Below the pieces are notes generated by a model, which saw only the letters and a list, made by a program, of their open reading frames with translations, had not been told where the DNA came from and ran no database searches. A stretch of DNA of 5,206 nt from Candidatus Omnitrophota bacterium (GTDB lineage: Bacteria > Omnitrophota > JACPQZ01), in assembly GCA_016190205.1 (NCBI GenBank), contig JACPQZ010000012.1:1-5206 (forward strand), given 5' to 3'. Shown here one piece after another: positions 1,429 through 5,182 of this stretch. Position 1 is the stretch's first letter. Each line of letters starts with the position of its first letter. The translations under genes and the position numbers were made by a program.

Positions 1429-1436
1429 TTATAACA
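1428..1436 (-). promoter_or_regulatory. Candidate extended -10 promoter for the ATPase/GspB-like pair
   Basis: On the minus strand TGTTATAAT matches the extended -10 pattern TGnTATAAT exactly and overlaps the leuS stop codon. No good -35 lies at the usual distance, which extended -10 promoters can tolerate. Transcription would start near 1421 and the leader would contain the whole palindromic element before the GTG at 1232. It may be fortuitous, because TTA-TAA also encodes the last leuS codons. Confidence 0.3.
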
Positions 1437-3909
1437 CAATATTTACCAGGCGGCCCGGCACCACGATGACCTGCTTAACCGCTTGATCCTTGATCCAGCG
1501 CTCGATCGCCTTTTCGCTTAACACGCGCTTTTTGAGCTCTTCCTCCCCCACCTCGACCGGTACCTCAACGCGGTGGCGCACTCGTCCGTTCACCTGAACA
1601 ACCACAGTGACCGATTCGACTTGAAGAGCTCGCTCATCCACTTTAGGCCAGCCGCTTGAGTGTACGCCCTCCCCATGACCCAGCCGGCTCCAGAGCTCTT
1701 CCGCCATATGCGGCGCAAAGGGGGTGAGGAGCCTCACCAAAATTTCCACTGCCTCCTTAAGGGCTGGGTCAGGGGCGTGGCCGGCCGCCTTTCCACCGCC
1801 CTCAATCTCCCGGGTTCCTTTATAAAGCTCGTTCACGAGCTCCATAATCTGGCTGATGGCGGTATTAAAATGGAAATCGCCTTCCATATCCTGCGTGACC
1901 TTTCGCAGGGCGCCGTGCGCCCTTTGCCGCAAGAGAGAGGCGGCCTCTTTCGAAATAAGTTCGATGCTTCCCTCGGTGAAGGCCGTGACCAGGCGCCAGA
2001 GCCTATTCAAAAACCTCCAGGCCCCCTGCATTCCTTGATCGCTCCACTCCGCGTCGCGTTCCGGCGGGCCTATAAAGAGGGTATAGACCCGGACCGTATC
2101 GGCGCCGAAACGCTCGATAAGCTCGTCGGGGCTCACGACATTCCCCTTTGACTTCGACATCTTGGCCCCGTCTTTGATGATCATGCCTTGAGTGAACAGA
2201 GTGCCGAAGGGCTCATCGAACTCAAGATGGCCCAGATCCTTGAGGACTTTGGTAATAAACCTGGAATAAAGGAGGTGCAGGATCGCGTGCTCCACCCCCC
2301 CGATATACTGGTCCACCGGGAGCCAACGGTTGACGAGTTCTTTCGAAAAGGCCTGATGGGCGTCCCTGGGCGAGAGATAGCGCAGAAAATACCAGGAGGA
2401 ATCGACGAAGGTGTCCATGGTGTCGATTTCCCGGCTGGCCTGGGAACCGCAACGGGGGCAGACGGTCTTCACAAAGTCAGGCGCGTCCTTAAGCGGGCTC
2501 TCCCCCGTGGGTTTAAAGCGGACATTTTCTGGAAGGAGGACAGGCAGGTCTTGCTCCGGCACAGGGACCGGCCCGCATTTGGGGCAAAGAATTACAGGTA
2601 TGGGCGCCCCCCAGTATCGCTGGCGTGAGATGAGCCAGTCGCGCAGGCGGAATTGAACGGCGCGGCGGCCGCTTTTTTTTGCCTCCATCTCGTCTGCCAT
2701 TTTTTCCATCGCGGCCCGGTTGGGCTGGCTGTTGTAAGGACCGGAATTTACCATGACGCCGTCTTCCACGTAAGCCGACTCCATCTGGGACCCATTTAGG
2801 GGGGACCCCGGCCGGTCGATCACCACCTGAATCGGCAGCTTATATTTCTTGGCAAACTCAAAGTCGCGCTGGTCATGCGCCGGAACCGCCATGACCGCGC
2901 CGGTCCCGTATTCCATGAGGACATAGTTCGCAACCCAAATGGGGATTTTCCCGCGCGTCATGGGGTTTAGGCAGTAACGCCCCGTAAAGACCCCGGTTTT
3001 TTCAAGATCCTCCCGGGTGCGCTCGAAGCGGCTGACATTGGTTTCTTTTTCGACGTACTGCTCCACATCCGCCCGTTTCGGAGAATTCTTAAGAAGCTCG
3101 CCCAGCCGCGGGTACTCGGGGGCGAGCACCATATAGGTGGCACCAAAGATCGTGTCCACCCGCGTCGTGTAGCACTCGATGGGGTCTCCGCCGCCCTCGA
3201 GGGGAAAAAGACAGCGCACGCCCGCGCTTTTTCCGATCCAGTTCATTTGCATGATCTTGACCCGCTCCGGCCAGCGCTCAAGCTTCTCGATATCTTTGAG
3301 CAGGCGCTCGGCGTATTCCGTGATCCGGAAAAACCACTGCTCAAGCTCCTTCTGCGTCACAGCCGTTGAACAGCGTTCGCACTTGCCCTCCACCACTTGC
3401 TCGTTGGCAAGCGAGGTCTGGCAGGACGGGCACCAGTTGACGGGCGCTTTGGCCTTATAACACAAACCCCTCTCAAAGAGCTTTAAGAATATCCACTGCG
3501 TCCACTTGTAATAATCGGGCAGGCAGGACGTCACCTCCCGGTCCCAGTCATAGCCCACTCCCCAGGAATGAAGCTGCCGCTTCATGTTTTGAATGTTGTT
3601 TAAGGCGCTCGTCTTAGGATGGATCCCGCGCTGGATGGCCGCGTTTTCTGCGGGCAGGCCAAAGGCGTCCCAGCCCATCGGGGAGAGCACATTGAACCCG
3701 CGCATGAGCTTGTAGCGGACGACGGCGTCCCCGATAATGTAATTGCGGCCGTGCCCCACATGGAGCGCGGCCGACGGGTACGGGAACATGACCAGGCAGT
3801 AGTACTTAGGCTTGGGAGAAGCGGGGTCCATGCGAAAAAGACCCATCTCGCTCCACCTCGCCTGCCACTTGGATTCTATTTCCTTAAAGGGATATGCTGC
3901 TTCGGGCAT
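1429..3909 (-). CDS. leuS: Leucyl-tRNA synthetase
   Basis: Complete 826-residue class I leucyl-tRNA synthetase, the cytoplasmic enzyme that activates leucine with ATP and loads it on tRNA-Leu. The Rossmann fold has the HIGH-type motif HVGHGR (50-55) and the KMSKS loop GAKMSKSKGN (581-590). Two Cys pairs, CPSC (160-163) with CERC (177-180), look like one zinc knuckle; CPKC (442-445) with CPRC (484-487) look like a second. The CP1 editing domain contains TTRVDTIFG (248-256), with the threonine that discriminates against leucine at T253, and AVPAHDQRDF (341-350) with the conserved Asp D346. The anticodon-binding region follows from about 610, and the C-terminal domain ends VVPGRLVNIVL. The segment before KMSKS is short (FTQGMIIKDGAKMSKS), so the leucine-specific domain found in E. 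coli is absent, as in Bacillus-type enzymes. TTRVD replaces the usual TTRPD. The ATG fits the family N-terminus, but no Shine-Dalgarno precedes it: a hairpin ends 9 bases upstream. tRNA-Ala lies upstream in the same direction. Confidence 0.98.
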   Translation of the reverse strand: MPEAAYPFKEIESKWQARWSEMGLFRMDPASPKPKYYCLVMFPYPSAALHVGHGRNYIIGDAVVRYKLMRGFNVLSPMGWDAFGLPAENAAIQRGIHPKTSALNNIQNMKRQLHSWGVGYDWDREVTSCLPDYYKWTQWIFLKLFERGLCYKAKAPVNWCPSCQTSLANEQVVEGKCERCSTAVTQKELEQWFFRITEYAERLLKDIEKLERWPERVKIMQMNWIGKSAGVRCLFPLEGGGDPIECYTTRVDTIFGATYMVLAPEYPRLGELLKNSPKRADVEQYVEKETNVSRFERTREDLEKTGVFTGRYCLNPMTRGKIPIWVANYVLMEYGTGAVMAVPAHDQRDFEFAKKYKLPIQVVIDRPGSPLNGSQMESAYVEDGVMVNSGPYNSQPNRAAMEKMADEMEAKKSGRRAVQFRLRDWLISRQRYWGAPIPVILCPKCGPVPVPEQDLPVLLPENVRFKPTGESPLKDAPDFVKTVCPRCGSQASREIDTMDTFVDSSWYFLRYLSPRDAHQAFSKELVNRWLPVDQYIGGVEHAILHLLYSRFITKVLKDLGHLEFDEPFGTLFTQGMIIKDGAKMSKSKGNVVSPDELIERFGADTVRVYTLFIGPPERDAEWSDQGMQGAWRFLNRLWRLVTAFTEGSIELISKEAASLLRQRAHGALRKVTQDMEGDFHFNTAISQIMELVNELYKGTREIEGGGKAAGHAPDPALKEAVEILVRLLTPFAPHMAEELWSRLGHGEGVHSSGWPKVDERALQVESVTVVVQVNGRVRHRVEVPVEVGEEELKKRVLSEKAIERWIKDQAVKQVIVVPGRLVNIVL

Positions 3910-3955: not shown

Positions 3956-3982
3956 TATAAGACCTGGAGCTGACCGGGATCG
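3956..3982 (-). repeat. Duplicated 3' end of tRNA-Ala (att-like direct repeat)
   Basis: These 27 bp match 4146-4172 with one mismatch, and the 21 bp at 3962-3982 match 4152-4172 exactly. The copied segment covers the 3' half of the T-arm, the 3' acceptor strand and discriminator base of tRNA-Ala, plus the flank GGT and TTATA. That is the part of a tRNA gene that tyrosine recombinases commonly use as attachment core. The copies are 190 bp apart in the same orientation, with the intact gene at the right-hand copy. The rest of the tRNA is missing here, so this copy is not a functional tRNA. It may be an integration/excision scar or a local duplication. Confidence 0.7.
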
Positions 3983-4137
3983 GCGCTTGGAGCTCGCAAG
4001 GTAGAATGTTAGGCAATAGCGCGTTTCATCTTGCTCGCCCCAAGTCGGCCACTCGCCGCTCCAAGGATGGCGGGCCTCCTACTCGTCGGCCCGCATCATT
4101 TTGGGGGTCGCGGCTCACTTCGATCCCGGTCGGCTTC
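3966..4137. repeat. 172-bp segment bounded by tRNA-tail-like inverted repeats
   Basis: The 17 bp at 3966-3982 are matched in inverted orientation at 4121-4137 with 15 of 17 identities (core GACCGGGATCG). The right copy also matches the T-arm of tRNA-Ala: 4119-4131 is identical to 13 bases of it in inverted orientation. I see no gene inside. The interior is GC-rich and contains one strong stem-loop. The length is close to the 167-bp palindrome downstream of leuS, but I see no shared interior sequence. It could be a small non-autonomous element whose ends mimic a tRNA tail, or a rearranged tRNA fragment. Confidence 0.4.
4066..4097. other. Stem-loop in the tRNA-Ala to leuS gap
   Basis: GATG-CGGGCC (4066-4076, one bulged G at 4070) pairs with GGCCCGCATC (4088-4097) across an 11-base loop, giving a stable 10-bp stem. 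No U-tract follows on either strand, so it is not a clear intrinsic terminator. It may help 3' processing or partly end tRNA-Ala transcription before leuS. Confidence 0.4.
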
Positions 4138-4154
4138 GCTACTATTATAATACC

Positions 4155-4227
4155 TGGAGCTGACCGGGATCGAACCGGCGGCCTCCACAATGCCATTGTG
4201 GCGCTCTCCCAGCTGAGCTACAGCCCC
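4155..4227 (-). tRNA. tRNA-Ala (anticodon GGC)
   Basis: The 73-base cloverleaf is complete. The acceptor GGGGCTG pairs with CAGCTCC and includes the G3:U70 wobble that identifies alanine tRNAs, with discriminator A. The D-stem is GCTC/GAGC. The anticodon stem is CCACA/TGTGG around the loop ATGGCAT, giving anticodon GGC (4194-4192), which reads GCC codons. The T-arm is GCCGG TTCGATC CCGGT. The CCA tail is not encoded (GGT follows), so a CCA-adding enzyme is needed. A near-consensus promoter lies just upstream. leuS follows in the same direction after 245 bp, and its own promoter is not evident, so read-through from here is possible. Confidence 0.97.
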
Positions 4228-4297: not shown

Positions 4298-4330
4298 AAA
4301 AAAAGGGCCCAGGTCCGGCCTGGGCCCTTT
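4298..4330 (-). terminator. Intrinsic terminator of the 122-residue protein gene
   Basis: A perfect 12-bp stem (AAAGGGCCCAGG at 4302-4313, CCTGGGCCCTTT at 4319-4330) with a 5-base loop is followed on the minus strand by seven T residues (4304-4298). It lies 47 bases after the stop codon of the leftward small gene and separates it from the tRNA-Ala promoter. Confidence 0.92.
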
Positions 4331-4376
4331 CGAACCGCTGTCTGTTTACTCCCTTTTCGAGGCGGTGTGACCCTCC

Positions 4377-4745
4377 CTACTTGGCCATTGGACGACGGTT
4401 CCGCGCAGTCGCCCGCACCCGCCGGATTGCTCCCTCATGGGTGCGAATCTCGCGGTTGAGCTGGGCCGCCCGCGCGAGATAAGACTTGAGCCCCGGGATT
4501 TCCACCTCACCCTTCTGGCTCAACTCCACCACCCGCCGCCCAATTTCCTGGTGTACTTGATCCTGCCTGCGTTTGATGCCCAATACATCGAACTGCAAAC
4601 GGCCGATCCGCGCGGCGCGCGCAATCTCCTTTTCACCCTTGCGCGCCAGCACCAAGGCCTCGCCGCCCAAAACGCGCAGACGCTTGCGCGCAGCTTCCCA
4701 TATTTTTAGAATTTCTTTCTGTAAATCTTGCTCTTTCGTCGGCAT
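4377..4745 (-). CDS. Small charged helical protein, function unknown
   Basis: Encodes 122 residues beginning MPTKEQDLQKEILKIWEAARKR and very rich in Lys, Arg, Glu and Gln. It looks almost entirely helical, with a likely amphipathic or coiled-coil stretch from about residue 35 to 80 (centre IGRLQFDVLGIKRRQDQVHQ) and a second helix at 85-115 after a short break near VEIPG. The C-terminus is strongly basic. There is no signal peptide or membrane helix, so it is probably cytoplasmic. I do not recognise the family; small coiled-coil proteins with an IGxLxxDxxGxKR...IGxRVxEL pattern occur in several Gram-negative lineages without an assigned role. The ATG at 4745 was chosen because a sigma70 promoter predicts transcription from about 4781. 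The frame is open further upstream to 4919, but that part lies upstream of the promoter and is translated repeat. The ribosome binding site is weak (AAGAG). It has its own promoter and terminator, so it is a single-gene unit. Confidence 0.8.
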   Translation of the reverse strand: MPTKEQDLQKEILKIWEAARKRLRVLGGEALVLARKGEKEIARAARIGRLQFDVLGIKRRQDQVHQEIGRRVVELSQKGEVEIPGLKSYLARAAQLNREIRTHEGAIRRVRATARNRRPMAK

Positions 4746-4775: not shown

Positions 4776-4804
4776 TTGACAAGTTTCAGAATACTCCCTA
4801 GAAT
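4776..4804 (+). promoter_or_regulatory. Sigma70-type promoter directed at tRNA-Leu
   Basis: TTGACA (4776-4781, perfect) is separated by exactly 17 bases from TAGAAT (4799-4804, 5 of 6). The start would be near 4811, giving a leader of about 125 bases before tRNA-Leu that contains the 7-bp-period inverted repeats. No better promoter is seen closer to the tRNA. It shares its DNA with an opposing promoter. Confidence 0.7.
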
Positions 4805-4816
4805 AGCGCCTGTCAA
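4788..4816 (-). promoter_or_regulatory. Sigma70-type promoter of the 122-residue protein gene
   Basis: On the minus strand TTGACA (4816-4811, perfect) is separated by exactly 17 bases from TATTCT (4793-4788, 4 of 6). The start would be near 4781, 36 bases before the ATG. The -35 of each promoter lies just beyond the -10 of the other, so the two cannot be occupied by polymerase at once. Confidence 0.65.
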
Positions 4817-4839
4817 TAACATTGTGCCGGAAAGATACA

Positions 4840-4910
4840 TTCCTCGTGCTTCGTGCTTCGTGCGTCGTCCAAAACGATACGAAGCACGAGGAACGATGCA
4901 CGACGCACGA
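4840..4910. repeat. Inverted 7-bp-period repeat cluster upstream of tRNA-Leu
   Basis: The left half carries CGT at 4845, 4852, 4859 and 4866 (units such as TCGTGCT). The right half carries ACG at 4879, 4886, 4893, 4900 and 4907, so both have an exact 7-bp step on opposite strands. A perfect 15-bp inverted repeat (4840-4854 with 4879-4893) and a second 11-bp one (4858-4868 with 4900-4910) link the halves. The cluster can fold into alternative hairpins in the tRNA-Leu leader. No gene is credible here. Confidence 0.75.
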
Positions 4911-4935
4911 GCGCTGCACACCCTAACTTATTAGG

Positions 4936-5026: not shown

Positions 5027-5047
5027 GAACCGCTCGCGAGCGGGTTC
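5027..5047 (+). terminator. Hairpin just after tRNA-Leu
   Basis: The 12-bp palindrome CGCTCGCGAGCG (5031-5042), flanked by GAAC and GTTC with a small offset, forms a strong hairpin 5 bases after the tRNA. It lacks a T-tract, so it is a weak or atypical terminator candidate or a processing signal. Confidence 0.4.
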
Positions 5048-5049
5048 GG

Positions 5050-5113
5050 GGATCGTGGATCGGTTATCGGTGATCGCAGGATCGTTGATCGTTTATCGGT
5101 CATCGGTAATCGC
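5050..5113. repeat. Degenerate 7-bp-period ATCG array
   Basis: ATCG occurs nine times, at 5052, 5059, 5066, 5073, 5081, 5088, 5095, 5102 and 5109. The step is 7, with a single 8. Units read like TTATCGG, TGATCGC and TCATCGG. Two blocks each open with GGATCG and close with ATCGCA, suggesting a higher-order duplication. No gene is visible in it. Beyond it, 5114-5182 holds only a small TTGGCT/AGCCAA stem (5122-5143). Confidence 0.8.
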
Positions 5114-5182
5114 AAGCGCCGTTGGCTATCAGACTTCAGCCAAAGGTGGAGCATACAACCGGCGGCTGCAAGTTGAGGGCGC

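Follow-up and report, generated by a model that had tools for sequence, protein, structure and literature searches.

Two probable divergent promoters of the sigma70 type, interleaved in a conserved 41-bp box between a tRNA-Leu gene and a small-protein gene in Omnitrophota

Bidirectional promoters of E. coli and Salmonella (Warman, Grainger; PMC12825309, PMC10268837) load RNA polymerase either way, with steric exclusion and divergent transcripts. They have one common -10 element, and their starts are 7-25 bp apart. The wild-type bidirectional promoters of E. coli are too weak for competition at basal activity, but strong competition appears when one -35 element is improved; at least one strongly active promoter is needed (PMC12825309). 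The control region of plasmid RA3 includes the opposed pairs repBp/repXp and orf02p/orf02prev, called face-to-face, of which the orf02 pair is under the repressors KorB and KorC; when repXp is crippled, repBp rises 14-fold (PMC9455977). In pLS20, the cores of the divergent sigma-A promoters Pc and Pr overlap entirely, each -10 falling on the -35 of the opposite promoter, their strengths are unequal, and the switch is made by the regulator Rco and DNA looping (PMC4207663).

A 41-bp box with two consensus promoters was recognized in a contig of 5,206 nt from a Candidatus Omnitrophota bacterium (JACPQZ010000012.1, assembly GCA_016190205.1), referred to here as the window. The box is a well-conserved new case of overlapping divergent promoters, an arrangement already known. 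It resembles the bidirectional promoters in predicted either-way loading, steric exclusion and divergent transcripts, and differs from them in its separate -10 elements, in predicted starts about 30 bp apart, and in that one product is a tRNA. Its promoters are opposed as in RA3, but it does not belong to a plasmid control region, and no dedicated repressor comparable to KorB or KorC is evident in the window. With Pc and Pr it shares divergent orientation, overlap of the whole cores and unequal predicted strengths; unlike theirs, its hexamers do not coincide. The features are collected in Table 1.

Table 1. Features around the promoter box, in window coordinates; G002 is an Omnitrophota genome from a different class
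Feature	Position	Strand	Basis
41-bp box, two interleaved divergent sigma70-type promoters	4776..4816	.	Direct read and scan; kept in G002
tRNA-Leu-directed promoter TTGACA-N17-TAGAAT, predicted start ~4811-4812	4776..4804	+	Scan; same in G002
122-codon-gene-directed promoter TTGACA-N17-TATTCT, predicted start ~4780-4781	4788..4816	-	Scan; G002 counterpart TTGACA-N17-TAACAT
Dispersed hairpin repeat, inside the 125-nt leader between + promoter and tRNA-Leu	4838..4912	+	
tRNA-Leu, anticodon CAA	4936..5021	+	ARAGORN, Rfam
122-codon gene, ATG start, charged small protein	4377..4745	-	ORF list; Omnitrophota family
Intrinsic terminator, 13-bp stem, T-rich tail, after the 122-codon gene	4301..4331	-	

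Read directly on the + strand, the box is TTGACA AGTTTC AGAATA CTCCC TAGAAT AGCGCC TGTCAA, or in scheme TTGACA N6 AGAATA N5 TAGAAT N6 TGTCAA. The + promoter consists of TTGACA at 4776-4781 and TAGAAT at 4799-4804 and matches the consensus at 11/12 positions, and the - promoter, with TTGACA at 4816-4811 and TATTCT at 4793-4788, matches at 10/12; both have a 17-bp spacer, and direct reading and scan agree. Only three matches with at least 10/12 consensus positions were found in the window, the third of which precedes tRNA-Ala. With 7 bp taken from the -10 to the start, the predicted starts are ~4811 (+) and ~4781 (-), about 30 bp apart, each inside the opposite -35 hexamer. Each -10 falls within the spacer of the opposite promoter, and the two -10s are 5 bp apart. 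The first-pass annotation had described these opposed hexamers and spacers, the expected start of each transcript in the -35 region of the other, and the two neighbouring genes at which the promoters point, all of which agree with the letters and the scan. Two full -35/-10 pairs on opposite strands share a core here, and outward-pointing genes flank it on both sides in the window and in G002, which places the box among overlapping divergent (face-to-face) sigma70 promoters. It is not a bidirectional promoter in the strict sense of a shared or overlapping -10 and starts 7-25 bp apart. Promoters overlapping in this way yield diverging, not colliding, transcripts.

In the host draft genome (1.65 Mb), TTGACA-N17-TANNNT occurs at 45 sites, compared with 5 for the reversed control, and is therefore the promoter consensus of this genome itself. 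Two exact matches overlap at a single site in the genome, the box. Among the 30 host tRNA genes examined, only tRNA-Leu(CAA) and tRNA-Glu(CTC) have an exact-TTGACA promoter match within 250 bp upstream, and of these two matches only that of tRNA-Leu is overlapped by a reverse one. About 1.6e-9 boxes are expected by chance in the 190-bp intergenic region of the window. The strict pattern TTGACA N6 ANNNTA N5 TANNNT N6 TGTCAA detects a complete box in 3 genomes out of the 384 of the phylum, and the reversed control detects none. In the third of these genomes, G291 (L104), the box falls where a TPR-like coding sequence begins, no tRNA is present, and the match was treated as chance. At these expectations, a chance origin of the box between tRNA-Leu and the small-protein gene is excluded.

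The second locus is in G002. The class of the host genome contains one genome and that of G002 two, so far as the search for closer relatives covered them, and protein identity between the genomes is 63% for LeuRS and 36% for the small protein. The box of G002 (L002:1426-1466) occupies the equivalent position in a syntenic locus, flanked by tRNA-Leu(CAA) on one side and by the homologue of the small-protein gene on the other. The loci share leuS, tRNA-Ala(GGC), an excisionase-like gene and a bactofilin-like gene; in G002 the gene diverging from tRNA-Leu(CAA) is followed by tRNA-Ala(GGC) and leuS, and the excisionase-like and bactofilin-like genes lie beyond tRNA-Leu. The two boxes were aligned in the tRNA direction, and both TTGACA hexamers together with T, A and the last T of both -10s were taken as the 18 informative positions. 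All 18 sigma70-informative bases are identical, compared with 9 of the 23 others (Fisher p 2.3e-5). The tRNA-side promoter of G002 is again TTGACA-N17-TAGAAT and the gene side is TTGACA-N17-TAACAT, whose predicted start gives a 25-nt leader with GGAG ahead of the ATG. By chance, 7.6e-9 boxes are expected in the 87-bp intergenic region of G002. The single-promoter pattern, at 71 sites genome-wide against 60 for the control, is not clearly above control in G002, so only the double box is informative there. No relative other than G002 was found in which the two genes are neighbours, and G002 keeps both promoters; the comparison of relatives suggested in the first-pass annotation, covering both -35/-10 pairs and their 17-bp spacers, thus turned out in favour of the promoter pair. 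G005, from the family of G002 (72% complete), was considered as a further case and rejected, as its tRNA match is Leu(TAA) and it has no small-protein homologue.

This conservation bears on two other explanations. It is highly improbable that the tRNA promoter alone is real and the reverse match fortuitous. The tRNA side is indeed the stronger one and fully conserved, with TAGAAT in both loci, and the gene-side -10 (TATTCT; TAACAT in G002) is, by its letters, imperfect; however, G002 keeps the reverse TTGACA and TA...T at 17 bp while the neighbouring bases are randomised, and given how rare the box is, two chance matches at one locus can be discounted. The outer TTGACA...TGTCAA could also be read as an inverted repeat serving as the operator of a dimeric regulator, with at most one real promoter, and the 80 boxes retrieved from GTDB genomes include several near-perfect palindromes, as is typical of operators. 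This is very unlikely here: the boxes of the window and G002 are non-palindromic between the outer hexamers, and conservation extends to the TA...T of both -10s and to their 17-bp spacers, features for which an operator has no use. Most likely, both promoters are real. The two consensus promoters, their geometry and their conservation between classes can be read from the sequences themselves.

The predicted 5' leader of the 122-codon gene is about 35 nt. Given the terminator downstream, the - transcript is probably monocistronic. The product is probably helical; no family in Pfam or NCBIfam matched it over the cut-off, and no relatives turned up when GTDB contigs were scanned with its 122-aa sequence. 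A profile of the family has matches in 84 of 368 genomes of the phylum, one copy each. On the other side, the predicted + start precedes tRNA-Leu by 125 nt, and the repeat hairpin lies between them; this repeat has 35 matches in the genome and is missing from G002, whose leader is shorter. Downstream of tRNA-Leu, at 5040-5115, degenerate GATCG/ATCGG short repeats are observed, which are also present at the start of another contig, C39.

The order in the window is an XrtA/PEP-CTERM-associated-type ATPase gene (-), leuS (-; 1429-3909), tRNA-Ala(GGC) (-), the terminator and the 122-codon gene (-), followed by the box, the dispersed hairpin repeat and tRNA-Leu(CAA) (+). C39 overlaps the end of the window (contig C73) with a few mismatches and extends the locus with genes which we take, from reading their translations, to be HigBA-like, excisionase-like, bactofilin-like and AccA-like. 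The tRNA-Leu(CAA) region recurs at a contig end, in C39 (G000:C39:21-112; L240). This second copy is 97% identical and has a tRNA score of 39 bits, compared with 57, the lower score coming from substitutions; it is probably a strain variant or an assembly overlap. Of the 31 phylum genomes in which both leuS and a tRNA-Leu(CAA)-like gene were found, 23 have the two on one contig and no more than 5 kb apart, often with tRNA-Ala(GGC) alongside, so that leucyl-tRNA synthetase is linked with its own tRNA phylum-wide. Other elements were observed in the window. A MITE-like element of ~167 bp (1262-1428) with 26-bp terminal inverted repeats (92% complementary) occurs at about six places in the genome; the 354-codon ORF at 375-1439 reads into it, and its real start is probably further in. 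A 27-bp direct repeat (3956-3982 and 4146-4172, 190 bp apart) copies the tRNA-Ala 3' end and flank, with an inverted further copy at 4119-4135, and may have been left by an integration event at the 3' end of the tRNA gene.

The pairing of tRNA-Leu and the small protein is clade-specific. Among the best 30 loci of the small-protein family from the 84 genomes, just two, in the window and in G002, lie within ~1.5 kb of a tRNA, and just these two have the box; for the window in this survey, an upstream GTG was taken as the gene start, and its promoters were read directly instead. Likewise, among 30 tRNA-Leu(CAA) loci examined, gene and box are present only in the window and G002. The pairing consequently provides no phylum-wide functional link between tRNA-Leu and the small protein, and the proposal in the first-pass annotation of a switch tying tRNA supply to the protein is not borne out, the gene family and tRNA-Leu(CAA) being apart elsewhere in the phylum. 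A different overlap was seen in two loci of one family, L218 and L239 (G112 and G058): a TTGACAA heptamer is the -35 of a tRNA-Ala/tRNA-Leu promoter, and reversed (TTGTCA-N17/18-TAGAAT) it is the -35 of a promoter pointing the opposite way.

Across 257 Gb of GTDB genomes, the box was found in 117 stretches, which by a rough estimate is about what chance would produce, given the millions of ordinary promoters on which a mirror site can arise; no global enrichment is therefore claimed, and the case stands on the conserved locus. A divergent context was similarly frequent for boxes (22/80) and for single promoters in the same loci (6/26), which gives no global support. About 14 of the 80 fetched boxes immediately precede tRNA genes, in most cases tRNA-Val(TAC) operons in Bacilli and Clostridia. 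In several MAGs of these classes, the box lies ~10-20 bp before the tRNA-Val(TAC) operon with co-directional flanking genes (L097, L100, L111, L113, L128, L143, L150, L164, L165, L169, and L171), which may reflect shared ancestry of one promoter. A Eubacteriales locus (L155) with the box, tRNA-Leu(CAA) and a 124-aa gene was rejected as a third case since the gene is, from its translation, presumably YlxM-like and the tRNA has its own closer promoter.

The box is best read, with a probability of about three in four, as a pair of overlapping divergent housekeeping promoters, in an economical constitutive layout with passive competition rather than a signal-operated switch. The RA3 pair repBp/repXp and the E. 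coli promoters with improved -35 elements are precedents for this reading; the distance to the tRNA with its intervening hairpin, the imperfect gene-side -10 and the lack of competition at wild-type E. coli bidirectional promoters at basal activity speak against it. RNA polymerase bound rightward would produce the tRNA-Leu(CAA) precursor, and polymerase bound leftward a monocistronic mRNA for the 122-codon protein. As the spacer of each promoter contains the -10 of the other, and its -35 the predicted start of the other, the box would hold a single polymerase at any time. Such steric exclusion can be deduced from this geometry together with what is established about the footprint of the polymerase. 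Firing of one promoter would lower the other in proportion to its own occupancy, and two perfect -35 elements make competition plausible. We infer the firing of both promoters, their start points, the mutual exclusion and its size. Promoter occlusion means that an elongating polymerase covers a promoter. The exclusive binding claimed in the first-pass annotation under this term is thus supported by the geometry, but the term does not fit, the expected effect being competition for binding.

A regulated reciprocal switch, in which high tRNA-Leu transcription shuts the small-protein gene off and vice versa, possibly tipped by a regulator, is unlikely. The -35 elements are strong on both sides, the geometry is exactly conserved, and strong promoters do compete (PMC12825309). 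However, almost any internal indel breaks at least one 17-bp spacer, so interleaving alone locks the 41-bp geometry while both promoters are needed, and conservation alone is no proof of selected competition or reciprocity. No operator besides the box itself and no regulator gene is evident in the window, and elsewhere in the phylum the gene family is away from tRNAs and tRNA-Leu(CAA) away from the gene. It is similarly doubtful that the box is a conserved regulator-free pair beside leuS which, by polymerase competition and nothing else, makes tRNA-Leu(CAA) output vary inversely with the small protein.

As overlapping housekeeping promoters, the box offers a clean natural example: two interleaved consensus promoters within 41 bp have been retained in two different classes, while the filler bases have changed. 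It would be a good test piece for the regulatory meaning of polymerase competition at strong overlapping promoters, in this instance with one of them directed at a tRNA gene.
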